Source: Loxodes magnus (taxonomy: Eukaryota; Ciliophora; Karyorelictea; Loxodida; Loxodidae). From it: 64,000 bases of DNA. Below, piece by piece: positions 2,985 to 48,289 of the stretch. Made by a program: the position numbers and the translations under genes. The stretch lies in NCBI GenBank assembly GCA_946699065.1, contig CAMPDV010000015.1:806001-870000 (forward strand), given 5' to 3'. Positions within the stretch are counted from its first letter, which is position 1; every line of letters begins with the position of its first letter. Below the pieces are notes generated by a model. The model was not told the DNA's origin, did not search any database, and worked only from the letters and a program-made list of their open reading frames with translations.

Positions 2985-4178
2985 TTAATTATTTATTTTT
3001 ATGGAAATTCACATCTTAAATTAATTTTTATATTAAGAATGTAAGAAAAAAGTTGTAAAAGTATGAATAAAGAAACGAAAAATGAGTAAAATTAATTGTA
3101 AATAAAAATGTTTTTTCTACTTATACTATTAAAAGTTATCTAATCTTTTTCTTTTAGATTCTACCTTCTTTTGCATTTTAAAATTTAATTTCATACAGAA
3201 GGTTTCTAGTTTAAACGAATTTTTTACTATTAATAAAGGATATAAGCAGAAAAATATAGCTGAAAAATAAAGCACATAAATAAAAGAATTTAAGGAGTTA
3301 AAATTTTACTTTAAGTTATTTTTTTTATTCATTATAAAAGCATGAAAAATATAATCCTTTCAAATGAAGAACATAATATATTTGAATTTTTTTAAGCATT
3401 TCATCTATTTTTGCTATGTTGTCAAAACAATAATAATATAACGACTAAAATATAAATAGAATCTTAATTTAAAAAAATTAATTAGCGCAAAAATTAACAA
3501 ATAAATTTAAATTTTTATAAGTTAAACAATATAAAAAATAAAAATTAACTTTAATTTGGAGCAAGAATTAACTAAAAAGTTTTAAATCTAACCAATTTGA
3601 AAAATGAATATTAAATGAGCAACAAACCAAGAAAAATAGATACTTCACTTAAGAGTAAGATAAAAATAAAAATAAATTATTAAAAGTCAAAAAATATTTA
3701 GTAAAAACTGAACAAAGAAGTTAAATCTAAAATCAGTTCGAAATAAGACTAATCTAATTTGTTTTATAAGTAAGATAGGATGACTTAGCTTTATTTCCTT
3801 ATATTTAAAAATTGAATTTAAATTCAGAACAGCATTGAAATAATTTTTAAATGTAAACGATAAAAATAAAAATATATTCAAACAAAAGTTGAAAAATTGA
3901 GAACGAAAAAATTAAATAGCTTATTCTTTAAATTATTGAAAGAAAAAATTTAGAATTTTTTGCATGATCAAAATATATAAACAAACATATAAGAAGAAAA
4001 GACTTATATTTGCTTTAATTTATTATAGATCTTAAGAAAAAATGTTAAAAATACATAATAACAATAACTCAATGGATTCTACTAATTAAATCTAACATAT
4101 CTTCTATATATCCTTCTTTTTATATAACTCTAATTTTTTATTATTTTTTTTAATATTCTTTTTCTTATTTTTTATTTT

Positions 4179-5354
4179 TCACTTTTATACTCTCTTCCTT
4201 TTTATTCTTTCTATCTTCTCTTATCTTTACTAATTAATTAAATTAATAAGTCTTTACTAAACTTTCAAAATATATTACACGAACTCTTTTTCAACTTCCT
4301 ACGACAAAATATCTTTCAGTTTTACCTTTTTATCTTTTCCTCTTTTTATATTTCTTTATTTACCTAACTTACCTTTCTTCTCTCTTTATATCTCGAACTA
4401 CTAACTTTTTGATTTTTCTATTGTTTTTGTTTTAAATAAAGTTTCTTTACCATTCGTCTCCATTTCTACTTATACTTCGTTATTCTTCTTTTCGATTTCT
4501 TACAAAATTGTTTTTGTTTTTTATTACTATAAGTTCAAATTAAAGGACTCTTAATTTTTATCATAGCCATTAAATTTTATTTACTCAGTTACTTCTCTCT
4601 AAATATCACTCTAAGGTTCAGACTCTTCTTCTAAAAGATTTCTATAAAACAGACAAACTTTACTTTCATTTTTAAAAGAGTTATAAAGATTAGCCTCTCT
4701 AATCTTTTCTCTTTCTTCTTAAATTTGAAACTTCAGAAGGTTTAGTTGATTTTAAAGTTCTTTATTTTCTATCTAGAGTTCTTGATACATAAGTTTTAGG
4801 TTATAGTTTTAGTTTAATTGTTTTCTTAACTAAGCATTATCCTTCTATAATATTTCATTTTATTATTCTAGGCTAAGGTTTTATTCTTTTAGTTTACTAA
4901 GTTTAAGGTAGAATCTTTCGTTTTTAACGAATAAACTTTCATAAAGTGTCTGTTTTTCTTTAATTTCGCTTTACAAGTTAAAAACTTCTTCTTAATGCAT
5001 TTTAAGTTCTTTTTGTGTGTCTTTTAAAGTTTATGAAAGGAGTTATATTTCAATTTCCTTTTTATCGATTTCAGATTCGTAGACTTGAGTGATATTGTTT
5101 TTAATTTGTTAGAATTCTTTAGCTTTAGAAGAATAGGAAGATTATAGAGTAGGAACTTGGAGTTAATTACTTAACATTTAGTTTTCAGCTTCTAGTTATT
5201 AAATGATAGAAACAGCTTCTTAGTAAGACTTTTAAAGCTTTTAGTAGTTAGAATCGTGAAGAGCGTTAAGTTCTTATACTTTGGCTTGATCAATAAGAGT
5301 TTGTGTGTTTTTAGTATTAATAGCGAAAACGATTTATTTAATAAATAAATCCAT
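4179..5354 (-). CDS. coiled-coil protein, 391 aa (copy 1)
   Basis: With UAR read as glutamine the frame runs without a break from ATG at 5354 to TGA at 4179. It begins MDLFIKQIVFAINTKN and then enters long heptad-like stretches rich in L, Q, E and K, for example around YQEAVSIIQQLEAENQML and LQIENKELQNQLNLLKFQI. The last third is strongly basic (repeated KRGK and KRK runs) and ends RIKRKRVQK. I see no catalytic domain, signal peptide or membrane segment. It may be a structural or scaffold protein, but I do not recognise the family. The frame stays open upstream of this ATG, through 5355 to about 5600, so a longer N-terminus is possible. The second copy at 31903-33291 is nearly identical except for one extra base near the 3' end, which changes the C-terminus. 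Confidence 0.75.
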
Positions 5355-7109
5355 CTATAGGAATTATAAAGTAGATAAAAGAGATTTTTATTCTTATTTA
5401 ATAAACTTAATATTTATTATCTTATTTTTAAGATTTACGTCTAACTAACTATTTTTATCTTATTCTAATTATTTATTAATTCCCTTTAAATTTTTCATAT
5501 TAGCTTAATTGGAAAAAATAATTTAGCTTATATTTATTTATTGTACTTTTTGCTTGATGCTTTTTAATAGCATTTTGTCAACATGGTAAAGTTTATTTTT
5601 TCTTAAATTTTATCTGAGCCTTTTAAATAAATAATTGCATTTTATAAACAATTTTTAAGAGAAAGTAAACATTTTTTCCTATATGAATTTATAACTTTTA
5701 GTTTAAGAAAAATTTTTATTTTTAAACTTTTTAAAGATATTTAGCTATGAATATCTATTCTATTTTTCGAGATTGGCTTTCCAAAGTATAATTTAAAATT
5801 TTAGTTTATTTTTTGAAGATTTTTCTAATTTATTTCGTTAAGATAGCTTCTAAAATATTTTTGGTCAATGAATATTTACTCTTAATCATTTATTTAATAC
5901 TTTTATTATTTTCCAATAAGTTAATTACTCTGTTTCTCGAGATTTAACTTATTGGCCCATTTATTAGATATTGAACTTCAATTTTTATTAGCAGAAGATA
6001 AATAAAATAATGAAAATTAGCTTTTGTAATAAGACCAATAAAGTAAGCTACCCAAAAATTTACTTTATGTACTTAACTTCAAATCTTTTTAATTTCAGAT
6101 TTTAGTTTAAAATCTTTCTTGATTTTATATTCAGGAGTATCTGACAGTCATTTTAAATAACAGGAAATACAGTTAGTAAAAGAAGCAAGAATGAAAATTT
6201 ACAGCTATAAATTAGATGAGCACTCAAACTAAGGATTTATTAATTTCTTTCATCTTCAGCTAACATAGATCCTAGAAATTTTAATGATGGATATTTTTAA
6301 AATTTTTATAAACTTAATCATTTAATTTCGTTGGAATTCTAAGACCTTAAGACAAGTGTAAATAATTACTCAATAGATAATTAAATAATGCTAGATTTAA
6401 AAGTGTAATAAGCATCATTTTTAATTTAAAACCAATAAACTAAAATTAAACATAAAATTTATTTAGATTTAATGCTAAAACTAGCAAGGGTTTCCTATCT
6501 TAATTTAGTAATAAATTTCTTCTCATTTTCATTACTAAAAATTACTATCGAAGTTTGCTTTATACAATTTTTTGTAAATTAAAACGAAATAAAATTTAAG
6601 GGTTTTCTTTAAGAAATTTTTTTTCTTAATTCAACTTGAAACTGAACAGTTAAACTATTTAATAAGATAAATAGTAAAGATTAGAATTATCTATATTAAT
6701 TCATATTTTAGTTTCATGTTCTCTGCTTTTAATTATGCAAATCTATTCGAATATTTCCTTGAAAAATGGTATGAAGGATTTAAATAAATTTTATTTATAT
6801 AGAAAAATAGAAAAAAGAAGATAAAATGTAAACCTAAAATCAAGAGGGTTGTTTCATACTGATCCCTCTCAATCCTTAAGAAGAACTATAGAAGTTAGAT
6901 TAAAATATACGTTATTATTCTTTGAAGATGATAGGAAGACAAAAAACCCTAATTATGATAAAAAGTCAGTTAAAATCAAGAAAATTTACGTTAAAATAAA
7001 AAAGTAGCAAAAAACTAAGTAGATCTATAGATCAATGAACATGAGTTAACGAAATTAGAAACATTATCTAAGAAAGAGAATATAATTTTACTAAAATTTT
7101 CATATATTA
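5355..7109. other. intergenic stretch of the duplicated block
   Basis: No gene is confidently recognised. A plus-strand frame starting with ATG at 6735 reads a basic peptide (MQIYSNISLKNGMKDLNKF, later HTDPSQSLRRTIEVRLKY) that resembles coding sequence through about 7060 and is conserved in copy 2 with both silent and replacement changes, but it has no TGA stop before it enters non-homologous DNA. I therefore leave it uncalled. The hydrophobic frame at 5815-6000 (and 33746-33940 in copy 2) differs between the copies by a two-base indel and is not supported as a gene. Confidence 0.4.
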
Positions 7110-7535
7110 ATATTAATAATAATAAATATGATTATAGAGCGTGTAACACCTCGTTGGATCACAGCTATTTCAAATTTATATTTAATATTAAAAAAAATGT
7201 TATCATGCTTCTTTTTTTTCATTTTATTTGTCCAACGAGTCACATCTGCTTTTCAAAATGGGGAATTTACTTGTTAAAAATTATTCTTAAATCTTAAATC
7301 AAATGCTCTAGTCTTCTTGAATAAAATCAAAATAAGAATTAGTAATTAAGTCATTAGTAGATCCAACTTTCGTACTACTAGGAGAATCCTTGGACAAGCA
7401 AATCTTGTCTCTTCCAATCTTTCTAACCCCTTTGGTGACATCTAGTGAGAGATTACTCGAAATGCAGAATACAAGATTACTTACTAATTCTACTAGCTGC
7501 GTGCTACATCTATATTTTTATTTTAATAACAAATA
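7110..7535 (-). mobile_element. hairpin-tailed retroelement, minus strand
   Basis: On the minus strand the element ends with the 3' signature shared by families B and C: a bulged hairpin at 7136-7167 (GTG pairing with CAC in place of GCG with CGC), then CTCTATAATC and a short AT-rich tail. It interrupts the duplicated block: copy 2 at about 35045 lacks it. Near 7494-7530 there is a second, shortened and oppositely oriented piece that resembles the same tail (AGCTGCG, TGCTAC). The body has no clear ORF. Its exact 5' end is uncertain. Confidence 0.6.
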
Positions 7536-8437
7536 AAAGCAATGAAATTAAATAAGCTTTTACATATAATTTAAATATATGATATCTAAAGATAAATGAA
7601 GGAAAATTGAATTTATGAAATGAAAAATATAAATCTGAAAGAGAGACTAAAATTTGTTTAAATAATAAAGATTAATTTATTTTAGATATTTTTTATATAT
7701 TTGAACTCACTATTTATGTAAAAATATATATAAATGTAATTTTGTTCAAACAATTTAAATACAAGTTTTATATAATTATTCTTGCTTAATAATCAAAATT
7801 ATATATATCTTCCTTTATTTTTCCTAATTAAAACCTTTCATAATATCCAATTATTTTTTATTATATAGTAAATAATCTAATAATAATGCAAAATAGGTAA
7901 AAATTAGATGCATAAAACAATTTATCGAATATATTGGGCTATAGATATTTATAGAGGTATAGTAAATTATTTAAGGGTCATTATAAGAAAACCACAACAA
8001 TTGCTATAATTGTATATTCTTTTTATCTCATTCTTAAGTTTTCTTGTAATATATTAATCTTTCTAAAGCATAGATATTTGACTTAACATTTTCAAATTAG
8101 CTTTAAACTAACTCTTAATCATTTAAATATTAGCATATGATAATTAAAAAACAATCATAAGATACAAACTATTAAAACTAAAGTTGTAGAATACTGTTCT
8201 CATATAAATTTATTTATTGATATTTTCGATCTTTAGAAAGCATATAAGCATATTTTTATTTGGTTATAAAGTAAATAAATTTATAAATGTAATATTTTAG
8301 ATTAAGTTTTAAAACTTTCATTTAATTATATTCTAAGACTAGAAACTTAAATTATTCACTTCTTTAAATAAAAAGCAATAAATTAATTTATATAATAGAC
8401 AGTTAATCAGATATTTTAATCTAAAAATTAAATTAGT

Positions 8438-10180
8438 TCATCCATCTCCTCCATCCCCTCCATCTCCTCCATCATAATCACCATCACCACAATCGTCTTG
8501 AAAATCTTTATTGTCGAAATCTTCGTTGTTATAGGACTCAAAAGACACAGAATTATCTGCAATTATGTATATTTCAACATCTTCATAATCAATAAATTGC
8601 TTTATCTTTTTAGTTTTTGTTTTCTTTTCCTTTTTGAAATTAACTGTCCCTAGTTTCTATAGCAACTTGTCAAGTTTATTTTCATATTTTGTTCTAAAAT
8701 GGCTTAAACTACAACAGTAATTCCCAAATTTGATTACGTTGAAATTACCATCTATTCCCAAGTTAAATGCAAAAGGATGGGTAGAAGATACTTCTTTAAT
8801 CTTGTTTTAAAGATAATTGTTATCCTAGTTATTCTCAAAGATAAATAGCTTAAGTGGCCATTTATAAGATTTCCAATCATTTTTATCAGGAAGCTTTTCT
8901 GCATGATGATATGACCATTACTAAAAGTCATAGTTCCTATAGAAATGGAATATTCTTCCAAAAAGACTTGGATCTATTCTATCCAGTATCTACATGATTC
9001 TTAATGAGACATGCTACCATTTTAGAGTAAAATTAATCCATCAAAGAAAATCAAAAACTGTAACTATTGGTATAGGAGACATTTATACTTAAGGTTTTAT
9101 CCAATTTAGTCATTTCTAACCATCTTAAAATAAACCGCTTTCTTGCATCACTATAGGCATGATTTCTTACCAATTAAGATCTAAAGCTCTATATAGTGAA
9201 TTTGATTTTCCTTCAGTAGGTAGTTGAAAACTTTTAAACATTAGCTAACTACCAAATAGCTAATCTCCATGTTCGCCAGTTACTAAAATAGCCGTGGGGT
9301 CACTTTGAACTTAGTTTACAATGGAAGTAATATGATCTTCATCTTTTAGAATCAATTAACCAAATGTAGGATTTATACTTAAGTTATAAAATTCAGGATA
9401 TTCAGTAATGGAACTTTGTTTAAGAACTATTGTAATTTTGCTCAAAAGATCGTTTCTATTATTATTTTTAGTCCAAAGTAAAAACGAAGTTACAACAGCA
9501 GTAGAATCAATACCTCCACTTCATAGTACATAAATCTTACTACAAGGGTAATTTAAAATAGCTCCTGCAGTCTCATAACAAATTTGACCAAGTGTTTTGT
9601 TGAAAGAAGGATTGAAAGCTGGAAGTGGATCAATGATTTTAGTCTTTAAAGTTCCTTTGAGAACTCCAGTTCTGTCAATAATTTGAAAACGGAAGTAGCT
9701 GGAATATAAAAACATGAAATTTTTTTTAGGTAATATTTTAGTTTAGCTAAATTAAATTATCATTGAAAGTAAAGGATTATAGTCCAACATAAAATCAGCT
9801 ATATTCTCATTTACTTAGGATTAAGAAATTTTTTATTCCTCTTCCATTTTAGTTTATTTTTATACATTAACGAAAGTTGGAAAATTTCCACTTCCAATTC
9901 ATAGCAATTGAGGTAAAAATTCGCTTATCTATTGATTATTTTCCTTTTACTGGTGTGTCTAATATTAAGGAGTATTTATTTAAATTGCTTAGTTAGTCTA
10001 ATATTAAGGAATTTTTATTTCCTCGGGTTGGTTGTTCTAATATTAAGAAACATTTATTTCCACGAACTGATTGTTCTAGATCTAAGGAACATTGCTTTCC
10101 TTTGTTTGGCTGGATTCAATTTCATAAACATTTTTCCTTTTATTTAGGTCTTCTTTTTGAGAACTACAACAGGCTCCCAT
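8438..10180 (-). CDS. asparagine-synthase-like PP-loop protein, 580 aa (copy 1)
   Basis: The frame is intact from ATG at 10180 to TGA at 8438 with UAR as Q and internal UGA as W. The start MGACCSSQK is a textbook N-myristoylation context with two cysteines for palmitoylation, which suggests membrane anchoring. A glutamine-rich tract follows, with four 13-residue repeats of the type PQYQTNQ. The catalytic part has WSGGIDSTAVV (ATP pyrophosphatase P-loop) and TGEHGDQLFGS, matching the second signature of the asparagine synthase / beta-lactam synthetase fold. The protein ends in a DG-rich acidic tail. The N-terminal glutaminase of ordinary asparagine synthetases, with its Cys2, is absent, so ammonia or another amine would have to be the donor, or the enzyme adenylates a different carboxylate. 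Paralogues: 19891 (broken), 36199 and 52734. The substrate is unknown. Confidence 0.85.
9958..10113 (-). repeat. four tandem 39-nt units inside the synthase gene
   Basis: The string TCTAATATTAAG (the last unit diverged to TCTAGATCTAAG) recurs at 9958, 9997, 10036 and 10075, exactly 39 nt apart. Each unit encodes 13 residues containing PQ(Y/I)Q(N/T)NQ or close variants. The broken copy at 19891 has the same array (about 19959-20114). The copies at 36199 and 52734 lack it, so the array arose or was lost within this small family. Confidence 0.9.
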
Positions 10181-11949
10181 ATTTAGAATTTAATTTAATA
10201 GTTAGGGATTAAGCTATTAGGTACAATTTAACAATTTACCTTCTCAACTTACTTTGCTTTTATCAAATATAAAATATCAGCTTTTAAAGCTTTTTCATTT
10301 CTTAATTTATACTTTACTTTTCCCTTTTTCTTATTTATTTCTTGGGAGAAATGAAAGATTCCTTGCATATAAATTGAAGTTACTTTAGAATGTTAATGTA
10401 GTAAGAAATCTTATATCTAACTTCTATTTTCCTTCTATTTAGAAATTAAGTACTTTAAATAAAATTGTAACTAAATTGCTTATTAAGCTAGAAAATAGCA
10501 TAAATCAAGCCCTTTATTTTATAAACTCAAGCTTTGGACTAATTACTTACAGTTTGAATATTAAATGTATTAATCTAACTTCATTATCATAAATTCTCAA
10601 GTATTAATAAGTCCATTATAGCTAAACAATTGTTCTAACTTATTCAACAGAGATTTAGCTAATATAGTGTTTCTATCTGATCTTTTGATTCTTTCAAGAC
10701 TTTGCTACTTTAGTTAATCTTTTATCTTTATTTTGAGAAATAGCTTTTAGCTTAAAACTTAAAAAAAGCTTAAAAGCAAGTAATTTTTACAGACCCATTT
10801 AAAGAATTAGCTTGATTTATATAAGTTAGACTTTAATCTACTAATAGATTTTATTTAAAATCTTAGTTTATTACTTATCACTACGATTTGATTAGATAGA
10901 TTCATTTTAGGTAAGCATTGCAATGATAAAATCTTAGAATAGAAATATTTAAAATATTAATTTTCTAAATTTCTTAGATAAACTTAAAGTTGAAGTGCAA
11001 TTGCAGAACCTACTTAAGTAATTGAAGAATATAAATGTATTGAGATTAAATTATTTACTAACTTACTTCCCTTTTCTATATAGTTGTTTATATTGCTAAA
11101 TTAGATAATTTATTTTGACTATTTGTCGAGTTGATTATTGCAAAGAAATTTATAAAGTTTTGAAAAAACAATTTTCCTTCTCAACATCTCTAATTGTAAT
11201 GAAATACACAGTTACGAATGTAAAATATGCTGAACTAAATAATTTGAAAATGCAATAAAATAAAATAAAATAGGAGTAAATTAAATCAATTTAGCAAATT
11301 GGAAAGTTTCGTCTTTTTCTGATTTTAAGAATTTTTTATGCTTTATTAATATTTAAGCTATCTAAATGAACAAAAAGTAAAAGAATTAAAAAAATTAAAG
11401 AAAAATAAATAAATGGTGAGTGAACTAAAGGAAAAGAAAGGATTAGGGGAATGCTTTAGTTGAATGAAAACACTCAAAACAAAATTTATCCTTTTATGGA
11501 GAATTTTCTACTTTTTCCAAAGATTTTTTAGATAAAAAGATGGAACTTATAGTAAAGATTCAATAATTTAATTAATATTTTAACAATGAAATATAGAAAG
11601 AATAATAAAATAATAGAATATAAAGAAAAAATTAAAAAATATTTAAAAGTATATAAAATTAAATAGTATTAAAGTAAATTTATATTAATTAAGAAATATT
11701 AATAAAATATTCTATTTATTTTGTACTTAATTTTTTTGATTTTTTTGTAACTTTATTTTATTTAATTTTTTATAAAAAAAATAATATTTGATTGCATGAT
11801 TTTTTAATAAAATTATTTTAAAAGTTTATAACTTTTTCAAATTAAAGTATTTTAAATCATAATGGTTTTAGTATTTTAAATAGACTGTAAATTAAAATTA
11901 TTTTTAGGTTTAGAATTTTATTTTATAAATTTTTATTAAATAAAATAAA
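10181..11949. other. upstream flank of synthase copy 1, no gene seen
   Basis: Most of this stretch (to 11563) belongs to the left arm of the inverted repeat. A pyrimidine-rich block at about 10310-10360 (CCCTTTTTC, then TTATTTCTTGGGAGA) has a weaker counterpart upstream of the copy at 36199 (about 37975-38030), so it may be part of a promoter or 5' leader. I found no protein motif in it. Confidence 0.4.
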
Positions 11950-12452
11950 TAAATAAATTTGATTATAGAGCGCCTAGCACTCTCATTGTTGCGCAGCTCT
12001 TTAAAAAAAATGTTTCATACTGACAAGAATGTTTGTTACTGATAAAATTATCAGATACTGGTAGACCTTGTACAATACTGGTATAATTATTCAGTACTGA
12101 TAAAAATGTTCAATACTGATATAATTTTAGAATACTCGTAATCTTTAATACTTGCTTGAGGTCCAAGGACATGGCAGGATTGTGTTTCATTGCATCACCA
12201 AAGCAGAGGACGACATGTGTCAATTATGGATACTTAAATTCCCCACCTCTGATGAAACTCGCAATATTATTTCTTTTTCGTTCCAGAATTAAATTTAAAC
12301 TAAGCCAGTGCCGAGGGTCTAAGAATCTTATATCTAGAGGCCAAACCAAAGCAGAGGAAGACATAAAGTCGATTATGGGTACTTAACTTCCCCAACCTCT
12401 GATGAAGATGACCTTGTTGTTCACCTTCGAACAACTATGGCGGTTTTAAAAA
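11950..12452 (-). mobile_element. 5'-truncated family B retroelement (about 500 bp)
   Basis: This is a near-identical partner of 55455-55965. Read on the minus strand it starts just before the CCGCCATAG sequence, which contains the last codons of the longer element's ORF, and ends with the bulged hairpin (11967-12000), CTCTATAATC and a TTTATTTATT tail. The body contains about seven imperfect copies of a TACTGATA / TACTGGTA motif (12020-12140) and an internally duplicated segment of about 60 bp, with CCAAAGCAGAGGA at about 12200 and again at about 12348. The longer relative at 55455-56835 shows that this is a 3' fragment rather than an independent SINE. Confidence 0.8.
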
Positions 12453-13712
12453 ATATATTATTAATAAAAATTGAAAAATGGACGATGTTCTCTAGTCGGC
12501 CGAATTGATAATCTTTTGCATTATAAATTGTATTATGAATACTCTCGTAATAGAGGCACACACAGATAAGTAAATACGTTTCTTTTATGTGTAAGCCTTA
12601 GTTATTTGAGGGTTCTCTCTAGTGGTACGAAAAGCTGACTAATTGTCGCTGAAGCTCAGTCCTCAGAGTCCTCCTGTCTTTACATTTTGTTGTTTTAAGC
12701 AGGAGTAGAAAAATAACTAAAGATATTACTGTGATTAACGATAGTTTTTATTTAGAAGAATTTAAATTTAATATGCCATTTAGCACAAAAATTGATACTC
12801 TTCTAATCCTTTATAACTCCGATCTTCTTAAGGATTTTCAAAAATTTAGAGAAGAAAGTAATCAATTTTGAATCTAAAAACTGAGAATAAAGAGAATATG
12901 ATCCAACGAAGGAAAATAAATCAAGAAAATTCTGTTTAAAGAGATCAGATAAAGCTAGAATCGCTCTAAAGTTTTGCAAACAGTAAAATTTGGCATATTT
13001 TACTAATCATGTGATCCTTATAATATTTTGGTATAACGCTAATTTATTTTATTCATTTAAAATATTTTCCTTCGTTTTTATAGATTGCAGTAAAATTATT
13101 AACTAGAAATACTTTTAAACCATTATTAGATTCTTATTTATCCATAAGCTTTATTACATAGTTATAGTAATTTACGATTTATTTTCTAATTGATGGAGTT
13201 GATTAAATTCAAAAGTATTTTAAAATATTTACTACCATATTTAAAAATTTAACAAATATGATCTTAAGCATAATTAATTTTAACACTTATTACTTTTTTA
13301 TTATTGATTATCTCTTAAAAGCTGCAAATACTTACTACAGCAAAATTAAATTTTTATTTTTACATAAAATTATTTTAAATAATAGATTCTATTTTTTATT
13401 TTGTAGGTATTATGCATTATAAATAAGAAAAATAGATAAATATTATTTAAAGCATATTAATTTTTTCTTCTCTATATAAATAAAAAAAGTTACTATATTA
13501 ATTTTATTCCTAAGATTTAATTTAAATAACTAAGTTACTCTCCGTTTTATTATTTTCCCAATTTTTTTGAATATAAAATTTAATAATTTACTATAAATAA
13601 AAAAATAATCTTCTTAATAATTAAAATTTAATTAAATATCCTCTAATAAATTAGTAGAAATGTTTAATTTGAATAATTTAAATAATTTTTTAATACTTTA
13701 AAATTACTTAAA
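12453..13712. other. mostly AT-rich, possible gene remnant at about 12700-13000
   Basis: A GC-richer piece at 12480-12700 contains CTCAGTCCTCAGAGTCC and may be a decayed element, but it has no second copy here. From about 12735 a plus-strand frame reads FYLEEFKFNMPFSTKIDTLL and then SDLLKDFQKFREESNQF, which looks coding but has no recognisable start or domain. From 13060 onward the sequence is the old duplicate of 150-1080. Confidence 0.35.
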
Positions 13713-14711
13713 TTAGATTTTTTTTATAAAAAAAATGGTTGAAGGTTTCAAGTCAGGCTTCTTTACCACCTCTTCCTAAACCAAAAAGGAAGTGAGGAAG
13801 CAAGAAACCAAGTCTTAATAATCTTAACAATCTTCTCTATCACAACCTTAACCAACACTGAACTAACAAATTGGAATCTAACAAAACGAACGAAAGCCAA
13901 CCTTGAAGAATATACACACGGAAACTCCAACCTCAAGCGAGAAACCGAGGAAACAGATGAAATCTGTTCTCCACCAGGAGGTATCAGAGTTCAACCCTTC
14001 TGAACAGATGAGCATGGAGTAGCTCATCAAAGTGGTACTTAACCTCCAGGAAGAGGTCAAGAGATTGAAGAAGGACAATGATATGCTGATGGCAAAGCTA
14101 GACCTAGCAGAGTAATTGAATCAAGACTTATGTCCTAGGAAAGAGATCTTAAAGCCTTTTGGAATATCTCACAAAGTCAGACTAACGAATCCTAAAATTA
14201 GCTTTAGAAACAGACTGAACTGGATAACAGACTCGGAAAAGTAGAAGAGAAATTGTAAACTTTTAAGAAAGATTAAAGCAAAACTGGAGCTATACAAATG
14301 GAAATCGAAGTCTAGAAAGAGCAAACAAATCTAGGAAAATAATTCAAAATAAAAAAGAAATGTTTCTGCTGTGGAAGCGTATGATATTTTTATCAGAAGT
14401 GTTAAAAATTCTAATAGAAATAAAGAAACTATTGGATAAAAGAACAACAAAAGAGGAAAAAGGAAGAACCAAGAATGAAAAGAATGTATTGCAACCCGGA
14501 TGGTTCAATATACAAGATCAAGATGGAACCATATCAAGTAAAAGGAAGGAAAACCTGGAGAAACCCGAGTTCCCAATCTCGCTAAAATTGGGCGTCCCAA
14601 ACATTTATATTTAACAGCAGGGAGTCCGAACTGCTGTCCTCCTAACGGGTTAGAAATCCCTAAAACGGAAAACTCAAAATTAATATTTTTATTATTATTA
14701 GATTTTTTTTA
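13713..14711 (+). mobile_element. family B ORF1-only retroelement with 14-bp target duplication
   Basis: The element occupies 13727-14697 and is flanked by the exact direct repeat TTAGATTTTTTTTA (13713-13726 and 14698-14711). The paralogous empty site lies near 815-830. The ORF starts at 13735, eight bases into the element, as MVEGFKSGFFTTSS. It continues with a glutamine/serine-rich segment and a coiled coil (LNLQEEVKRLKKDN), then, after about one frame break, MSQERDLKAFWNISQSQ and a zinc-knuckle-like motif CFCCGSVWYFYQKC with Y in place of H. The downstream motif YCNPDG matches the YPSxDG of other members. The 3' end has small hairpins (GGGTTAGAAATCCC) and a TTATTATTA tail. There is no reverse transcriptase. 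Confidence 0.85.
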
Positions 14712-14969
14712 ATATTCTTAATTAATTTTTTCTTTAAGATTTATTTTTTAATTAAAAATGAAGAGTATTTTAGAATTTTAAAGTATGAATATTTTATTTT
14801 TATTAGTCATTTATTTAAGCAAATTTAGTTAGGAATAAAGTTATTCTTTTTCTTAAATAGTTAATAAAAAATTGAATAATATAACTTCTTTTCAAAAAAA
14901 GCAAATTTTTGCTCAATTTAAATACTAATATTTTTAACTACGTTCTTTCATTTTAAGAAGTATCACAAT

Positions 14970-15425
14970 TGATAGCTCGTAAATTGTAAAGCATGATTAT
15001 AGAAAAAGAAAAAACTAAATTAATTGATTAAGAAATGAAAAAATAAGAAAAAACTGACATAATCTTGCAAAAGAGAATAGAGAAATTGGAAAAAAGCATT
15101 TTAGAAAAAAATCCAGGAAAAATAGACTAAAAACTGTTGATTCTGCAAGGTTTGTCGTGATGATGCTGAACTTGAAAAAATTCCAGATAAAATAACAATA
15201 AAGAAAATGAAAAATGCTAATTTAACTGTGAATAACTGAAACTGGAGTATAAAAATAGAAAATGTGTGCAAGAAGTGTAGGTAATTATTTTGGTTAGCTA
15301 CCTCATAAAAAGATGTCGTTGTATTCCTCCACGTAAACAAATTGGCTACATTTACCTGCTTGAAAGTCTAGAGAAAGAAAAATTAAAAAATTTAGATTAT
15401 TACTAGAAGAAATTAATTCAACTCT
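14970..15425 (+). mobile_element. family A retroelement, 5'-truncated
   Basis: A lysine/glutamate-rich coiled-coil reading frame (IEKEKTKLIDQEMKKQEK) leads into a cysteine-rich remnant KNCWFCKVCRDD. The 3' part, with CCTCCACGT, TACCTGCTTGAAAG and then a TTATTACTA tail, lines up with the end of the family A copy at 48290-48960. It is degenerate and lacks the MEKNIR start. Confidence 0.65.
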
Positions 15426-16009
15426 CTTTATAACTTAAAAAATAAAAAAATTTCTAATTGATAAAATCCATATATAAATAAATATTTTAAACTAAATAAA
15501 TAAATTTATATTATTAAAATTAATATTTATATTTTGGTATAACTTTTTCAACTAAAATACATCAAAACACTAAGAAAATTTTAAAATTTATATTAAATTA
15601 AAATTTTATTTTAAATAAGATATGCCATTAAAAGAGATTAACATTATTACTATTCTTTTCCTATTTAGCAATTTAATTTAATATCTAATTGTTAAAGTTA
15701 TTAATTATATTAATTATTTAAATGGCTGTTAAATTATAATAATCGAATTAAAAATTTAAAACTATGACTAAAAGATATTATTGCCTTCTTATATTATCTT
15801 AATAAAGTTTTTTATTTTATATATTTTTCAATAAAAAGTTAGTTTTTTATCATAATTTGGTAGTCATTCATACCATTAAATTAAAGTATCTTTTTGCTTA
15901 CTAAAATTTAAAATTTTTAGTTCCGATTTCATTCGAAGAGTTTACCTATATCAGATTCTGGATAATTTATAACTTCTTTCCGCATTTTATAGTAGAAACT
16001 TATTATTTT
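15426..16009. other. AT-rich, no gene seen
   Basis: Nothing beyond loose similarity to parts of 1500-1750, which may extend the old duplication noted at 150-1080. Confidence 0.5.
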
Positions 16010-16436: not shown

Positions 16437-16869
16437 CATTAAATATAATTACATATATAGAAGTTTTTGAGTTTTTAATTAATAAAAATTATTTTTTAAC
16501 CAAGATAAAGAAATTTGATAGATTTATTTACTTAAAATCCAGAGAATGAATTTAATCTAAGGTAATTAAGCTAATTAACTAAAAATAAAATATTTCTAAT
16601 ATTAAATTTACTTCGCTTATTTACCTATAAAGCATATATGGCTTTAAATACTAAGCAAGACTTTAGATTAAAGATAGCACTTAAAATAAAATGCATAAAG
16701 AATACTAAATAACTATCTAAATTAAATTAAACTTATTATGCATATGATTATTTAAACTACCTGTATTTCTTAAATTTATTATATAAATATATATAAAATG
16801 GCTTCTAAGAAATAACAGAACTTTTAACAAAACATTTAAACAGGAAAATTCTCTAAAAAATAAAAAAGC

Positions 16870-18056
16870 GAAATAATTACAATGAGTGAAAGTGAGAAAT
16901 ATGATTGATATGACGAACATTAACCACTTGGAAATCCAGAATTAAAAAAACTTCCGACACAAACTCAAATAGAAATATTATCTAAGTCATTAAAAGAGTT
17001 TATGTTTAAAAATAGATACCTCACTGATAAAGTAGAAAAATTAGAAAAACTAATAACTTCTTTACTTGAGAAACAATATTAATAATCATAAGAAATAGAA
17101 AACAAACTGGAACAAAGAATTAAATAAATTTAATAATAAATTCAGGTAACGCCATTTTCGTTTTAACAGAATTAATAAGATCCTATGGAAATAGAAAATG
17201 AAGCCTCAAATTAAAATAAACAGTAAACTTTTATTTAAAATAAGTAGTAAATTTAAATTAAATAAGTGTTACAGGAATAATAGTTTAAAAGAAGAATAAA
17301 ATGATACGTGTGCAATAAATAACACCAATAAAAATACTGCTACTAACTAAGCGAAATTTAAAGAAAGAATAAATAAGATATTTTTAGAAAACTATTTAGG
17401 ATATATCCAACATAAAGCGGAAATATTTATAGAAAAAAATTCTTTAATTCAAATCTTAATCCTTGGATAAATAATTAGGAACGCTAAGTGTAAGACCAAA
17501 ACTATTCCGAATATTAAAGGATGGTGCACTAATGAAGTGCTACACCGCCTAACTAAGCCTAGTAGGAATTCAAGACAAACTAATAGAGACAAGCTGATAG
17601 AATAGGTCAGCTGGCTGACTACTAAGGCTTTAACAAAGCTTTTTAACTTTAACTTTTTTATAAGCTCACTCACAAAAATGATTACATAATAATATCAAAA
17701 TTTCCTCAATTATATAAAATAAATAAGGAGGAGCAATCCTCCAACTGATATTGACTTAAGATATGGTACCAGGAAGTACCCATGGTCGAAGAACTGAACA
17801 AGAATCTTGGTAGGAGTCAAAAGAGAAGACAAAAACTAAAAAGGCTTTAATTAACGTTGCTGATGAAAGATGTCAGATAATAAGGTCTCTTAGGAAACAT
17901 TCCGATTACGCCCTATAGAAGATGAGACTTACAAAGGATGTTAGCACTGTGGAAGACTTTAGAAAAACATTTTTTTTACTTTAAAAAATTTTATTAAAGA
18001 TCTGAGCGCCATTGATGTACTACGTGCTCTCTAATCTTATTTATTTAAAAAAAATA
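16870..18056 (+). mobile_element. family C ORF1-only retroelement, full length
   Basis: The element begins just before the ORF at 16882 and ends with the shared 3' module. Around and after the TGA at 17746 there are two perfect small hairpins, GGAGGAGCAATCCTCC (17728-17743) and GGTACCAGGAAGTACC (17766-17781). About 250 bp of conserved 3' UTR follow, then the bulged hairpin at 17998-18030, CTCTAATC and TTATTTATT. The 3' half is repeated at 57440-57775 and, reversed, at 63350-63600. No reverse transcriptase is present. I could not define a convincing target-site duplication. Confidence 0.8.
16882..17748 (+). CDS. ORF1-like coiled-coil, zinc-knuckle protein, 288 aa (family C)
   Basis: This is an uninterrupted frame from ATG 16882 to TGA 17746-17748. 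It begins MSESEKYDWYDEHQPLGNP, with UGA for W. Residues of about 20-90 form a coiled coil (YLTDKVEKLEKLITSLLEKQ), followed by a very glutamine-rich linker. Then comes WYVCNKQHQQKYC, a degenerate CCHC knuckle in which the first Cys codon appears to have become TGA (Trp) and one spacer residue is missing. The C-terminus is basic and Q-rich and ends KEEQSSN, with the last codons lying inside the hairpin that opens the 3' UTR. By analogy with LINE ORF1 and Gag-type proteins it should bind the element's own RNA. This is the cleanest ORF1 among the small elements of the window. Confidence 0.75.
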
Positions 18057-18670: not shown

Positions 18671-19402
18671 CAGAAGAAAAAAAATGGAGAAGAACATTCG
18701 TTTTTCTAAGAAATAGCAAAGAAAAGAAAGAAGCAAGTGACGAAAGAGGAACTAAAAAAGCAAAGACGGGATAGAGAATCTAGCTCGATTTCAGAGAAAA
18801 AATAATTGTTGGTCCGACTGAACAGTAAAACACTGAAACCAAAAATAGCAATTTACTCCAAAGTGAAATCGAACAAATGAAAAATTAAATTGCAAAATGT
18901 GAAGAGATATATTTTAATCAAGGAGAAAAAATTTTGGAGCTAATGAACTTCATAGAAGATTAAAATAACGAACTGCTAATTCTCAAAAGTTAATTGATTA
19001 AAAACTCGGTAGTAACAGAAAATTAACTTTATGAAATGTCGTAAACTAACTTCGCTTAATCACAAAGAATGATCTTAGAAGAAGATTAGCACAAACTACA
19101 ACTTTAAGAAAAGTAAATTTAAGAAAAATATGGTGCAAACTTAAGTAAAGAATTGATATGCTGGATAAAAGTTTATTAAAAACAGAAATTAGAAAAACTA
19201 TATAAAAGTTGTTGGTACTGCTAATCTTGATATCACTTAATAAGACAATCTAAGAAATGAAGATAACTCAAGTACAATGAAGAATAAAGAAATTGAAGAA
19301 ATATAAACAAACTTTGGATAACTGAGTAAGGCGTATATAAATAGAAACTATAAGCATGAAACTAAGAAAATCCTTCGTAGTAGCCGTCCACTTAAAAAAA
19401 GG
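18671..19402 (+). mobile_element. family A ORF1-only retroelement
   Basis: It is inserted in the right inverted-repeat arm immediately after the sequence CTTAAAATCAGAAA. The ORF starts at 18684 as MEKNIRFSKKQQRKERS, a start shared with the minus-strand copy at 49540-50345. A frame change follows in the basic N-terminal region, then a long coiled coil (SEIEQMKNQIAKCEEIYFNQ) and the knuckle CWYCQSWYHLIRQS, spaced as C-x2-C-x4-H-x4 with Ser in the last position. The segment KWRQLKYNEEQRNW is nearly repeated as EWKQLKLKEEQRTW in the copy at 48.6 kb. The usual family A 3' end is missing, probably through the deletion that also removed about 630 bp of the arm here. Confidence 0.75.
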
Positions 19403-19890
19403 ATTATATTAGCTAAATCTCTGTTGAATAAGTTAGAACAATTGTTTAGCTATAATGGACTTATTAATACTTGAGAATTTATGATAATGAAGTTAGATTA
19501 ATACATTTAATATTCAAACTGTAAGTAATTAGTCCAAAGCTTGAGTTTATAAAATAGAGGGCTTGATTTATGCTATTTTCTAGCTTAATAAGCAATTTAG
19601 TTACAATTTTATTTAAAGTACTTAATTTCTAAATAGAAGGAAAATAGAAGTTAGATATAAGATTTCTTACTAAATTAACATTCTAAAGTAACTTCAATTT
19701 ATAAGCAAGGAATCTTTCATTTCTCTCAAGAAATAAATAAGAAAAAGGGAAAAGTAAAGTATAAATTAAGAAATGAAAAAGCTTTAAAAGCTGATATTTT
19801 ATATTTGATAAAAGCAAAGTAAGTTGAGAAGGTAAATTGTTAAATTGTACCTAATAGCTTAATCCCTAACTATTAAATTAAATTATAAAT
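19403..19890. other. upstream flank of the broken synthase copy
   Basis: Reverse complement of about 10181-10668. No gene is seen. Confidence 0.6.
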
Positions 19891-21638
19891 ATGGGAGCCT
19901 GTTGTAGTTCTCAAAAAAAAAGACTTAAATAAAAGGAAAAATGTTTATGAAATTGAATCCAGCCAAACAAAGGAAAGCAATGTTCCTTAGATCTAGAACA
20001 ATCAGTTCGTGGAAATAAATGTTTCTTAATATTAGAACAACCAACCCGAGGAAATAAAAATTCCTTAATATTAGACTAACTAAGCAATTTAAATAAATAC
20101 TCCTTAATATTAGACACACCAGTAAAAGGAAAATAATCAATAGATAAGCGAATTTTTACCTCAATTGCTATGAATTGGAAGTGGAAATTTTCCAACTTTC
20201 GTTAATGTATAAAAATAAACTAAAATGGAAGAGGAATAAAAAATTTCTTAATCCTAAGTAAATGAGAATATAGCTGATTTTATGTTGGACTATAATCCTT
20301 TACTTTCAATGATAATTTAATTTAGCTAAACTAAAATATTACCTAAAAAAAATTTCATGTTTTTATATTCCAGCTACTTTCATTTTCAAATTATTGACAG
20401 AACTGGAGTTCTCAAAGGAACTTTAAAGACTAAAATCATTGATCCACTTCCAGCTTTCAATCCTTCTTTCAACAAAACACTTGGTCAAATTTGTTATGAG
20501 ACAGCAGGAGCTATTTTAAATTACCCTTGTAGTAAGATTTATGTACTATGAAGTGGAGGTATTGATTCTACTGCTGTTGTAACTTCGTTTTTACTTTGGA
20601 CTAAAAATAATAATAGAAACGATCTTTTGAGCAAAATTACAATAGTTCTTAAACAAAGTTCCATTACTGAATATCCTGAATTTTATAACTTAAGTATAAA
20701 TCCTACATTTGGTTAATTGATTCTAAAAGATGAAGATCATATTACTTCCATTGTTAACTAGGTTCAAAGTGACCCCACGGCTATTTTAGTAACTGGCGAA
20801 CATGGAGATTAGCTATTTGGTAGTTACCTAATGTTTAAAAGTTTTCAACTACCTACTGAATGAAATTCAAATTTACTATATAGAGCTTTAGATCTTAATT
20901 GGTAAGAAATCATGCCTAAAGTGATGCAAGAAAGCGGTTTATTTTAAGATGGTTAGAAATGACTAAATTGGATAAAACCTTAAGTATAAATATCTCCTAT
21001 ACCAATAGTTACAGTTTTTGATTTTCTTTGGTGGATTAATTTTACCTTGAAATGGTAGCATGTCTCATTAAGAATCATGTAGAGACTGGATAAAATAGAT
21101 CCAAGTCTTTTTGGAAGAATATTCCATTTCTATAGGAACTATGACTTTTAGTAATGGTCATATCATCATCATGCAGAAAAGCTTCCTGATAAAAATAACT
21201 GGAAATCTTATAAATGGCCTTTAAAGCTATTTATCTTTGAGAATAACTAGGATAACAATTATCTTTAAAACAAGATTAAAGAAGTATCTTCTACCCATCC
21301 TTATGCATTTAACTTGGGAATAGATGGTAATTTCAACGTAATCAAATTTGGGAATTACTGTTGTAGTTTAAGCCATTTTAGAACAAAATATGAAAATAAA
21401 CTTGACAAGTTGCTATAGAAACTAGGGACAGTTAATTTCAAAAAGGAAAAGAAAACAAAAACTAAAAAGATAAAGCAATTTATTGATTATGAAGATGTTG
21501 AAATATACATAATTGCAGATAATTCTGTGTCTTTTGAGTCCTATAATAACGAAGATTTCGACAATAATGATTTTCAAGACGATTGTGGTGATGGTGATTA
21601 TGATGGAGGAGATGGATGGGGATGGAGGAGATGGATGA
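19891..21638 (+). pseudogene. asparagine-synthase-like gene, frameshifted copy 2
   Basis: This is almost identical in sequence to the copy at 8438-10180, but the distance from ATG to the equivalent TGA is 1748 nt, which is not a multiple of three. An extra A in the A-run after MGACCSSQK (about 19914) shifts the frame at residue 9-10, and an extra T in the DG-rich tail (about 21616) shifts it again at the end. Between the two, the frame is open and carries the 39-nt repeat array (about 19959-20114), WSGGIDSTAVV with TGA for Trp at 20549-20551, and TGEHGDQLFGS. It has one more His codon in the YHHHAEK stretch than the 8438 copy. Unless programmed frameshifting rescues it, this copy does not make the protein. 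Its high similarity shows that it is young. Confidence 0.85.
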
Positions 21639-21753
21639 ACTAATTTAATTTTTAGATTAAAATATCTGATTAACTGTCTATTATATAAATTAATTTATTG
21701 CTTTTTATTTAAAGAAGTGAATAATTTAAGTTTCTTGTCTTAGAATATAATTT

Positions 21754-22616
21754 AATGAAAGTTTTAAAACTAAATTTAAAATTAAATTAAAATTTTAAGG
21801 TTAATGGAGTGTTCCCTTAAAAGATCCATAACTCCCTGTATTACCTTTTACAGGGTCTCGGACTCCCCGATGTCTACACCCAAGTTCACTTCCGAGCTTT
21901 CTGAACGGTCTTGGAGTTATCTTCTTACGTCATAATTTAACCATCCAAGGAAGGATAAAACATGGTAAATTCATTTCAAATCTTTTTTCTAATTTCCTTA
22001 TTTCCCTAGCATCTTCTTCAAAGATGATATTTGTTGCCACATATTTAGCACTTTTTTTTGAAGTATTTTTCTTAAGTCATGGGTTGTTCTTCTGATATCA
22101 TTGAATCTTGATTTTTTTATGGCTATTAGCTCTCTAATTTCTCTAACCTTTGCTTAATTTCTTTAACTTGCTAAAAGGCATTTTCATATTTTTAAAAGTC
22201 TATTCCCATTTATTCATCTAGTCTAACAATATCGCGTCCTATTCCTTGATATCTGTTATTAATATCCTATTTTTAACAAATTCAGTGTGTGGCTTCTCAT
22301 CGTTTACATGATCTTATAAATCTTGTTATAAACTGATAACATAATGCTCGAGATTCTCGACTTTATCAGTGTAGTCGAAAATAATATCCACAAGTTATTC
22401 CTTGTCTAAATTTATTAGTTGATTAAATGCATGCCTCTTTTTAGGAATTTTTACAGGTAGTTATTTTTCTTCTGATATTTAGCAATATTTTTTCTTTTAA
22501 ATCTTAGTTGGTATTTGTTAATTTTAGAAAGATTGATATGTAGTATTACGACTAATCCTTTCGATAAGAAAACCTTTGTTCCAACTCTCCATTTTTATAA
22601 TGAAAGTTTTAAAACT
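21754..22616 (-). mobile_element. family B retroelement with 18-bp target duplication
   Basis: The direct repeat AATGAAAGTTTTAAAACT flanks the element (21754-21771 and 22599-22616), and the left inverted-repeat arm gives the empty site (near 8310-8330). The minus-strand ORF starts at 22592, seven bases inside the element, as MESWNKGFLIERISRNT. It has a coiled coil (DKVENLEHYVISLQQDLQDH), one frame change, then EEQPMTQEKYFKKK and an intact CCHC knuckle CQICGNKYHLWRRC. After that come IWNEFTMFYPSLDGQ and a GC-richer 3' end (near 21800-21900, GGACTCCCCGATG) before an A/T tail. It inserted after the inverted duplication formed. Confidence 0.9.
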
Positions 22617-30829: not shown

Positions 30830-31795
30830 AAATATAAAATGGAAGGATTTAAAAGAGGCTTCTACACTACCTTCCATAAAATTAGAGAGGAAACCTGAAT
30901 CTAATCTTGGATAATCTTCTTTCCCTCAACCCTAACCTTTTTCTTAATCCTAATAACCTGGAGAGGAACGGAAATAAGCCCAGAAAACATCATATGCAAC
31001 AACTCCAACCTCATAAAAGAAAACAAGAAAGCAGATGAAGTCTGCTCTTCACTAGGAGGTCTTGGAGTTCAATCCTTCTAGCCAGATGAGTATGGAATAG
31101 CTCATTAAAGTGGTACTGAACATCTAGGAAGAGGTCAGGAAGCTGAAAAAAAATAATATAAAGCTAATGGAGAATCTGAACAAGCAAGAGGAAATCAAAT
31201 AAAGATTCATGTCTCAGGAGAGAGATTTAAGTGCTTTCTGCAATATATCTCAGAGTCAGAACAGCTAATCTCAGAATCGAGATTAAAAATTAGAGTAATT
31301 GACGGTAAATTAGCACAGCTAGTAGAAAATCAGCAAACATTGCAAAAGTAAATTGAATCAAATGATTAGAAATAAGACAATATGGAGATCGAAGAAATTA
31401 AAATTGACAAGCCTTTATACAAGCGAGAACTGAAATCCTACTACAACTTTGGCTCAAGAGAACACTTGTGAAGGAAGTGTAGAAATTCCTAATCTTCAAA
31501 CAGAACTACTGGCAAAAGCAAAGATAACAGTAAGTAAAAAGGAAGAGGTAGGAACGGCTCAAACTTAGAAGGAATAGAGAACAGTTATGGATGAACGCTC
31601 TTGGGAATATATGCAAGAAAAAAGGCAACCTCAATAGAAGAGAAACTAGAGATTTTAAGAGCAAGCAAGATAAGACAGTGGGTGGAGTACGAACATTTAA
31701 TTTTAGCCTCCGGATCAATCTGGAGGCAAGCTATAAATAGATTGAAATTCTACAAGAAGGCCAAACACTTTTATTAGTAATAATAATAAAAGATA
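30830..31795 (+). mobile_element. family B retroelement in the duplicated block
   Basis: It is absent from the homologous site in copy 1 (near 3855). The ORF starts at 30839 with MEGFKRGFYTTFHKIREET, close to MVEGFKSGFFTTSS of the 13.7-kb element. It has the same coiled-coil core and MSQERDLSAFCNISQSQ, and a knuckle eroded to YYNFGSREHLWRKC (two cysteines lost). The 3' end has the perfect hairpin GCCTCCGGATCAATCTGGAGGC (31706-31727) and a TTATTAGTAATAATAATAA tail. There are one to three frame changes. No reverse transcriptase is seen. Confidence 0.8.
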
Positions 31796-31902
31796 TAAAA
31801 ATAAAAATATATTCAAACAAAAGTTGTAAAATTGAGAATGAAAAAATTAAATAGCTTATTCTTTAAATTTTTGAAAGAAAAAATTTAAAATTTTTTGTAT
31901 AA

Positions 31903-47305: not shown

Positions 47306-47680
47306 AAAAAGATGGTGGAATGGAACAAAGGCTTTCTCGACTAAAAGGCTTCTCGTAACTCCAACAAAGACAAAAAAGAAATAATATTGTAAAATCTCAG
47401 AAGAAAAATAATTTCCTTCCAAGATTTCAAAAAAAAGTTACACTTTCGAACAACTTATGAACTAAGATAAAAAGTCTCTTGCTTAAATCATTTTTGATTA
47501 CATTGATAAGGTAGAGAATCTCGAACATTACGTCATGAGTTTACAATAAGACTTATAAGATCATGTCGAGGACGAGAGACCGCATAATGAATTTGTGACC
47601 AAAGAGGACATTAACAACAGATATTAAGAAATAGAATGCGATATAGTAAGAATTTATGAATAAATGGGAACAGATTTCTT
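47306..47680 (+). mobile_element. family B retroelement, 5' part
   Basis: The ORF starts at 47312 as MVEWNKGFLDQKASRNS, paralleling MESWNKGFLIERISRNT at 22592 on the minus strand. The coiled coil (DKVENLEHYVMSLQQDLQDH) follows after a frame change. The element is interrupted at GGAACAGATTTCTT (47667-47680) by a family D element, and the rest of family B is missing beyond it. Thus this copy ends where D ends. Confidence 0.8.
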
Positions 47681-48000: not shown

Positions 48001-48289
48001 TTTCTAATACTATATAAAAAAAAGAATTAGTTTTATAATATTGGCTTTAAATATTAGAGTTAATAATTTAGCTATTTTAAATGTTTTTAAAACCAAATTT
48101 ACATCTATGATAGCAAAGGCTTAGTTTTATTATTTACTCTGTCACTTTCTTTTACATTATTTAGATTGAGAGATATGGAGTAATTTATCTTAAGCAGCTT
48201 ATCTCTTTTTTAATCTTCGTGAGATTGTGAGAAAATAGAGTTACTAATAAGATTTTTTAAATGTTGACTTGCTTTTTTATGCTGAAATC

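Follow-up and report, generated by a model that had tools for sequence, protein, structure and literature searches.

Non-autonomous partners of LINEs are usually non-coding, and in SINE/LINE pairs of the stringent type the 3' end of the SINE is derived from that of the LINE. To our knowledge, the protein-coding exception among such partners is HAL1, which derives from its own L1 and whose ORF1 is that of L1 itself. Among LTR elements, the TR-GAG and gag-only elements of plants have kept a nucleocapsid-like gene and obtain their enzyme from elsewhere. HAL1 is a non-autonomous L1 derivative of mammals that encodes only ORF1p (PMC5753468), and it was likely moved by the L1 machinery (PMC4161310). 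For the ciliate Loxodes magnus, a MAC assembly of 706 Mbp that uses genetic code 27 (UGA meaning tryptophan or stop) has been described, together with the LINEs rnd-1_family-27 and -19, which are autonomous, 5-6 kb long, and carry RVT_1 and endonuclease domains; most interspersed repeats of this genome are unclassified (PMC11441545). Among the papers listed from the open-licence PMC literature, judged by title and the beginning of the abstract, there were no one-ORF LINE partners from Loxodes or other ciliates. This agrees with a preliminary description of the DNA analysed here, which knew of no named ciliate family with this layout, but the mammalian HAL1, as far as the accessible accounts of it go, has the same one.

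In the window, which is the whole 64-kb stretch of L. magnus DNA that was analysed, the families A, B1, B2, C, and E are separate elements of about 0.6-1 kb, each with its own 3' end. Copies were sought in 705,730,643 bases of the assembly. The B1 element (13727-14700, plus strand) has a knuckle ORF starting from the ATG at 13735, 3' hairpins, and an (ATT)n tail. This copy is frameshifted; the assembly search found at least 40 B1 places with 93-100% identity over the 923-bp query. Tails of the (ATT) type end all eight B1 loci fetched, which correspond to about four independent ones, L003 to L007 being one duplicated block. A B1-like element at 30839-31790 (plus strand) ends with the hairpin GCCTCCGGATCAATCTGGAGGC and an AT-rich triplet tail. 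The short fragment of it that entered the between-family BLASTP network had no match there, and the link of the element to B1 comes from a six-frame search (68% over 94 amino acids of the B1 protein). Family A is represented by a fragment at 14960-15430 (plus strand; C-terminal motif LWITETGVQKQK; BLASTP E=1.4e-5 to the 49-kb copy), an element at 18684-19400 (plus strand) whose ORF contains CWYCQSWYHLIRQ and LWITEQGVYKQK (E=1.6e-30 to the 48-kb copy), an element with an (ATT)n tail at 48330-48935 (plus strand), and a decayed one at 49535-50330 (minus strand) recognised by BLASTP. All 39 other places listed for the 48-kb copy begin at query base 21 or 31, with identities of 93-96%, and the bases before about 48320-48330 are not common to the other copies. 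The B2 element at 21780-22595 (minus strand) carries the knuckle CQICGNKYHLWRRC and the 19-bp flanking repeat AGTTTTAAAACTTTCATTA. A B2 5' half followed by SINE-2 lies at 47305-47670 (plus strand; sequence self-comparison and dN/dS), and a 3' half behind SINE-2 at 62106-62545 (plus strand; knuckle CYICSSLFHLWKKC; BLASTP and dN/dS). Family C proper (16788-17662, plus strand) has an ORF from the ATG at 16798 (MASKKQQNF...), a knuckle, its own 3' hairpins, and an (AACTTT)-type tail, and the family E element (55970-56830, minus strand) has an ORF with a knuckle, which reads CYYCKSKWHLYKNC in intact relatives, its own hairpin, and an (ATT)-type 3' end.

These assignments partly bear out the preliminary description, which had listed elements with a single gene for a coiled-coil knuckle protein in three families. 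Its A sites (14970, 18671, 48290, and 49540) indeed hold one-ORF elements with a predicted coiled coil and a knuckle or knuckle remnant. Its B sites hold them too, and represent B1 (13713), a B1-like element (30830), B2 (21754), E (55455), and two B2 pieces that each adjoin a SINE (47306 and 62109). Among its C sites, 16870 holds the C ORF, but 57440 and 63350 hold a SINE-like part without it. SINE-2 has an (AATT)n tail and is 97% identical between its two sites (47651-48002 and 61756-62108 (minus)). It occupies about the same position within B2 at both, which suggests that the two B2/SINE-2 loci derive from a single insertion that was rearranged or duplicated. The window also contains a LINE-1-type ORF2 fragment (50441-52084, plus strand, 70% identical), a LINE-1 3'-end fragment with the hairpin (62747-63229, plus strand, 79-81% identical), and a 3.25-kb block in two copies that are 97% identical (3860-7111 and 31795-35046), the first of which is adjoined by a LINE-1-type hairpin end (7111-7170, minus strand). 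A repeat of 1.5-2.4 kb with 80-98% identity (8294-10666, 19405-21782, 36055-37822, and 52731-54333) is probably a host gene family that has been duplicated; as judged by eye, one of the copies contains GGIDSTAVVTSFLL, which we take to resemble an asparagine-synthetase-like domain. Rfam gave no match within the 64-kb window.

For the RT genes to be open, TAA and TAG must encode glutamine and TGA tryptophan; the frames of these genes contain up to nine in-frame TGA. ORF lists made with translation table 6 were discarded as coding evidence, because reading TGA also as tryptophan leaves nearly any frame open, and evidence for coding was therefore taken from dN/dS and homology. The undisturbed proteins of E, B1, C, and a further family, F, which was found outside the window (L065 and L066), comprise 277-318 residues, with ends that we delimited by choice. 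At the A and B sites of the window, the one-ORF proteins have a predicted coiled coil and a knuckle or its remnant. The knuckle is CX2CX4HX4C in F, E, B2, and B1 (L002; a tyrosine replaces the histidine in the B1 locus L008) and CX2CX3HX4C in C, and its last cysteine is missing from the family A copies of the window. An alignment of eight rows, one of them a window fragment, has 11 invariant columns, which include three knuckle cysteines and the C-terminal Y...G.....K motif (of the type Y..xG.IYxxK). A (DP)MxIE-type motif recurs upstream of the knuckle. Pfam zf-CCHC matched F with 19.1 bits, below the cut-off of 20.8, and no match to it was listed for E, B1, or C. In BLASTP comparisons between families, B1 and E matched best (2e-18), followed by F and D (4e-12), C and B2 (2e-5), and E and F (9e-5), and family A was linked weakly (0.005 between the 18-kb copy and F); 700 decoys compared with 14 queries gave one decoy match. 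These similarities indicate that the proteins of the one-ORF families are homologous to each other, with A linked weakly. None of the knuckle proteins matched the ORF1 of LINE-1 or LINE-2 in BLASTP at E<0.05, and these two ORF1 proteins matched each other at 1e-30. By sequence, the LINE ORF1 proteins thus appear to be of a different type from the knuckle protein. The AlphaFold model of F has a pLDDT of 54, and a phmmer search of the PDB with F gave three matches (E 0.0095-0.076), the best to residues 152-184 of retinoblastoma-binding protein 6 and the next to a Copia VLP protein.

Selection on the ORF was measured as dN/dS on reference-anchored codons with the two wrong frames as controls; this codon scheme was used after frameshifts in the window copy of E had spoiled a protein-aligned comparison. 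In A, B1, and B2 the protein is clearly under purifying selection. Between B1 and the 31-kb copy dN/dS is 0.07 (p 7e-15; 1.2 in the other frames), the two halves of B2 yield 0.19 (p 7e-11) and 0.26 (p 3e-7, measured in a shifted frame that contains the knuckle), and the 48-kb copy of A yields 0.20 against the 18-kb copy (p 1e-11) and 0.44 against the 49-kb copy (p 0.005). Selection is moderate for C, with 0.45 against an old C copy (p 0.003) and a pN/pS of 0.49 for 29 copies compared with one reference, these comparisons not being independent of each other. For E, the value against the window copy is 0.67 (p 0.05), one wrong frame scores alike, and young pairs scatter around 1 (0.41-2.06). The decayed F relatives L010 and L026 gave a non-significant 0.74. 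A dN/dS below 1, which the preliminary description had named as a check on its families, is seen between subfamilies of A, B1, and B2 (0.07-0.26) and between C and an old C copy (0.45), but E and F gave no clear sign of selection on the protein.

The same description had suggested looking for an RT downstream of the ORF. Six-frame translations of 43 loci (30 C, eight B1, and five E) were searched with LINE-1 ORF1, LINE-1 EN/RT, and LINE-2 EN. No EN/RT was found downstream on the same strand in the 38 B1 and C loci (about 1.5 kb) or in the five E loci (0.2-0.5 kb). EN/RT matches occurred in L049 and L059 alone, antisense to the element, and L061 had one ORF1-like match upstream of it. Target site duplications (TSDs) behind the tails of E and B2 are stronger evidence for an enzyme-less unit than this search. 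Five E copies that were read fully have the family's own hairpin and (ATT)n tail with a TSD directly behind (four found by script and one by eye). In the script-based count, TSDs of 14-17 bp were found in four of six E copies, compared with a mean of 7.3 and a maximum of 10 in a swapped-flank control; a seventh locus, C131, was missed by the search pattern, left out of the count, and shows a 12-bp TSD by eye. The one B2 copy tested (21.8-22.6 kb) has a TSD of 19 bp. An ORF1-like protein without EN/RT is thus encoded by TSD-bounded units in both families. The 15-bp flanking repeats of B1 at the window copy and L008 are not separable from the control, and two F copies from one duplicated locus share a 6-bp flanking repeat.

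A shared 3' end with a LINE was found in family F. F has at least 40 near-full-length copies that are 98-100% identical, each of the 40 listed ones matching 876-881 of the 881 bases of the query. The final 45 bases of F can be aligned with the final 49 of LINE-2 such that both hairpin and tail coincide (score 44 against a null of 17.1+-2.7; p~1.8e-6, uncorrected for the 48 comparisons made), and for F and D alike none of 1000 shuffles matched the LINE-2 end as well. Queries from the 3' ends of LINE-2 and F were each matched to within 5 bases of the end in 40 of 40 listed copies. When 1900 segments of the retrieved sequence were scanned with the F end, the best were F, L008, L054, LINE-2, L026, and L010 (33), the next one scoring 30. 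Taken singly, the F relatives L026 and L054 resemble LINE-2 weakly (4 and 6 of 1000 shuffles as good), and L010 and L008 not significantly (67 and 94 of 1000). The C-terminal motif of the one-ORF proteins lies just upstream of the hairpin in L008, L026, and L010, and the hairpin therefore belongs to the one-ORF lineage; the motif is absent from the L054 fragment. Across eight sequences, 88.9% of the cells of the F/LINE-2 stem are paired, compared with 30-67% in slid controls, and both the covariation score and the percentage paired were reached by one of 500 shuffles. Three of nine pairs have changed on both sides, among them C-G to A-U and G-C to A-U between LINE-2 and F. This number and that of further pair types (eight) are not exceptional, being reached by 71 and 44 of 500 shuffles, respectively. 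Single-sequence hairpin z-scores are weak except that of E (-2.36; +0.27 in the 48-kb copy of A). By eye, a likely TGA stop lies within the 3' hairpin (L065 3126-3140 and L070 1610-1622; tandem TGATGA in F), and the stop signal and the presumed enzyme recognition site may overlap there. The 3' ends of A, B1, B2, C, E, and the 31-kb element had no match to those of LINE-1, LINE-2, or LINE-3 after correction for the 48 comparisons (smallest p 0.03). The preliminary idea of a borrowed LINE 3' end accordingly holds for F and its relatives with LINE-2, but not for the families and the LINE to which it had been applied.

At the other end of the elements, the first 110 or so bases of LINE-1 can be aligned with those of F, G (L045), B1, and the 31-kb element. 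The LINE-1 start was seen in three of five stretches, the other two having missed the 5' end or lacking this start. The common start (ATGGYNRGCTTCAAG...ACCACCTCCTC) occurs at the 5' ends of L069, L087, and L089, in L066, L045, and L008, and at 30839 in the window; it lies within the ORF of the one-ORF elements and out of frame with ORF1 in LINE-1. It is a possible shared promoter of LINE-1 and the one-ORF families, and F looks like a mosaic of a LINE-1-type head, its own gene, and a LINE-2-type tail.

On balance, we consider it probable that A, B1, B2, C, E, and F/D are RT-less non-LTR elements that encode a cis-binding protein and whose RNA is copied in trans by a LINE. Each of them consists of hardly anything but a single gene, begins only a few bases from the first ATG where the 5' end was seen, and ends in a 3' region with hairpins and a short-repeat tail. 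Transcription would begin from the 5' signature, and the transcript would be translated into the knuckle protein, which would most likely coat the RNA it came from like a nucleocapsid-like ORF1 or gag protein. This coating would occur in cis, because individual lineages would not retain intact ORFs if the protein worked in trans alone. The enzyme of a LINE would then dock on the 3' hairpin and begin copying in the tail, as suggested by the LINE-2 end of F/D and the TSDs of E and B2. RNA binding, cis action, and trans-mobilisation by a LINE enzyme are what we infer from these features. The partner of the lineage F/D most likely is LINE-2 or a close relative. Judged by 3'-end sequence, the partner of A, B, C, and E appears to be none of the three LINEs sampled, and their use of a LINE enzyme has no backing from tail sequence because none of the three LINE ends matched. 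RT-less elements that have diverged from each other under strong selection on their protein would demonstrate that an ORF1-type protein is able to act on its own RNA as a selfish unit separable from the enzyme.

A more far-reaching reading, which we regard as a tentative possibility, is that the families form a self-standing superfamily of RT-less protein-coding retroelements that has no LINE progenitor and swaps end modules between LINE hosts. An independent gag-like knuckle gene would then spread as its own element and keep its protein for cis packaging, F having combined a LINE-1-type 5' signature with a LINE-2-type 3' hairpin and A, B, C, and E carrying other ends. If so, the LINE machinery would have protein-carrying parasites that choose their enzyme by the hairpin.

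Somewhat unlikely is an origin in the manner of HAL1, by which each family would be a deletion derivative of an unsampled LINE with a knuckle-type ORF1, possibly of the LINE-3 clade. HAL1 itself is reported to have arisen in this way several times (PMC5753468), LINE-1 has a 5' end in common with F- and B1-type elements, and LINE-3 is abundant (at least 150 places listed; 7854 candidates at first look), its 5' part not being among the sequence seen; a stretch fetched for this part (L090) contained nothing recognisable as a LINE or ORF1. Against such an origin stand the different protein type of the LINE-1 and LINE-2 ORF1, the short high-copy units, which are 93-100% identical among the listed B1, C, and F places, and the 38 B1 and C loci, in which no longer form was found within flanks of 1.5 kb. 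Moreover, three LINE-3 3' ends are unlike those of A-E (one by score and two by eye). That lack of a 3' end in common with LINE-3 also speaks against a two-part system in which the knuckle protein serves an ORF1-poor LINE such as LINE-3 in trans as well, so that both would be partners and the elements not pure parasites. This arrangement would account for the long-term constraint on the knuckle protein, which needs an explanation, and it fits with LINE-3 ORF1 not being among the sequence seen, but we consider it very unlikely.

It is also highly improbable that, as the preliminary description had it, C and the 55-kb B type (here E) took over the 3' end of a LINE. The tail in question, a hairpin followed by TAATC and (TTTA)n, is indeed a LINE 3' end, but that of LINE-1 and not of the LINE named there as LINE-2. 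In the window, tails of this type lie near 12.0, 55.5, 57.7, and 63.2 kb; a further one is found on the minus strand at 63.35 kb, and that at 18.0 kb is degenerate. At 55.44-55.97 and 17.7-18.06 kb, the hairpin is part of SINE-like repeats, which are also found on their own. One of them, tail55, carries the LINE-1 3' hairpin, TAATC, and (TTTA)n at 55435-55969 (minus strand) and recurs at 11930-12469 (minus strand; 93.9% identical to 55435-55970), where no knuckle ORF is attached and a six-frame search found no match to the E, B1, C, or F protein; in C4000, tail55 is separate from E and in the opposite orientation. The other, tail57 (57450-57784, plus strand), also has the LINE-1 3' hairpin and, like a repeat of its type at 63339-63566 (minus strand), lacks the C ORF. 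The last 60-80 bases of both are common to LINE-1 (scores of 108 for tail55 and 90 for tail57; null about 15.6+-2.7).

The stretch from 16870 to 18056, which had been described as one element, consists of two repeats, namely C (the first 790 bases, extended to about 16788-17662) and a SINE-like repeat at 17700-18056 (plus strand) with a degenerate LINE-1-type 3' hairpin, which also occurs at 57450-57784 and 63339-63566 without the C ORF. A six-frame search of the window with the C protein found it at 16798-17595, with a weak match in B2 at 62262; at the sites 57440 and 63350 it recovered no C ORF beside the SINE-like part. C has at least 40 places in the assembly. The 39 others listed are 96-98% identical to the window copy, and none of their matches extends past base 823 of the 1187-base query, which is short of the hairpin. 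All 30 loci fetched start near ATAAAATGG and end in a variable tail of the (AACTTT) type, so that C does not 'end' in the LINE hairpin as had been proposed. A LINE-1-type hairpin in the same orientation lies within 600 bases behind C in two of the 30, the window copy (L039) and L051 (a match of 49 bases, about 375 bases past C), and could be taken to favour the takeover; in two more (L059 and L061) it is in the opposite orientation, and in the other 26 it is absent. C adjoins ATT runs in 19 of 23 distinct flanks, seven of the 30 loci having been merged for shared flanks, compared with 30% in an AT-rich background (p 3e-7), and in L049 it interrupts a LINE-1 copy, of which both junctions with C can be seen. 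Because C lands beside ATT runs, insertions that stack at tails are to be expected. TSDs of at least 10 bp were found in none of 26 C loci (four of the 30, not matched by the TSD pattern, were dropped), and the insertion mechanism of C may differ from that of E and B2.

For E, 37 of the 40 listed places that bear the ORF stop by query base 905 of 1411, which contradicts the earlier view that the 55-kb type ends in the hairpin. Three run into the hairpin repeat (the window copy C15, a near-duplicate 13 kb away, and C97). A takeover is favoured by the finding of tail55 behind E, both in one orientation, at two loci unrelated to each other (the duplicated C15 and C97), which are 88% identical over about 1.4 kb. 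At both junctions, however, the 3' end of E itself is preserved and leads into the AT-rich sequence with which other tail55 copies begin, and the flanks of E at the two composites share repeats of 8-9 bp, within the control. As E's 3' end is kept and C lands beside ATT runs, E and tail55 are read as neighbouring insertions, and a single composite unit is considered improbable. Together with the own tail of C in 30 loci, the own tail and TSD of E in five copies without tail55, and the occurrence of tail55 and tail57 without E or C ORFs, this argues against a takeover of the LINE-1 end by either family. That the families are retrocopies of mRNAs from a host gene family, as the near absence of a 5' UTR before the ATG might suggest, is extremely unlikely in view of tails that are (ATT)n, (AACTTT)n, or (AATT)-type and not poly-A, uniform 3' ends, the almost complete coverage of the query by all F places listed, and low dN/dS between copies that themselves are repeats.

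The closest known kind to the Loxodes one-ORF elements is the mammalian HAL1. Both are non-autonomous and encode only an ORF1-type protein without EN/RT, as seen here in the E and B2 units and in 38 B1 and C loci. In contrast to HAL1, the Loxodes protein shows no detectable relationship to LINE-1 or LINE-2 ORF1 and occurs in several families that have diverged from each other, and F carries a LINE-1-like 5' end together with a LINE-2-like 3' end. The 3' end of the partner LINE, a HAL1-type trait, is found in F/D with LINE-2 but not in A, B1, B2, C, or E with any of the three LINE ends. With SINE/LINE pairs, the Loxodes elements share a 3' hairpin and tail in common with a LINE (tail55 and tail57 with LINE-1, and F with LINE-2), but in A, B1, B2, and C there is a protein that selection maintains, and F and E encode its homologue. 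The natural pair of F and LINE-2 lends itself to testing hairpin recognition and cis preference. The plant TR-GAG elements differ in being LTR elements, whereas the Loxodes units have TSDs and 3' tails, and an unsystematic look at them revealed no LTRs. Autonomous and non-autonomous elements that have a 5' signature in common are also known, from the accessible accounts, among trypanosomatids, namely the LINE/SIDER elements with their 5' Pr77 promoter; the likeness is one of description, and the Loxodes signature is a candidate promoter. The LINEs rnd-1_family-27 and -19 come from the same genome as LINE-1, LINE-2, and LINE-3 of this study and are set beside them by description; in the accessible part of that report, one-ORF families are not described alongside them (PMC11441545). 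One-ORF elements may account for part of the unclassified repeats of Loxodes. In all, these elements would work like HAL1, but with a protein that apparently did not come from the LINE ORF1s sampled.
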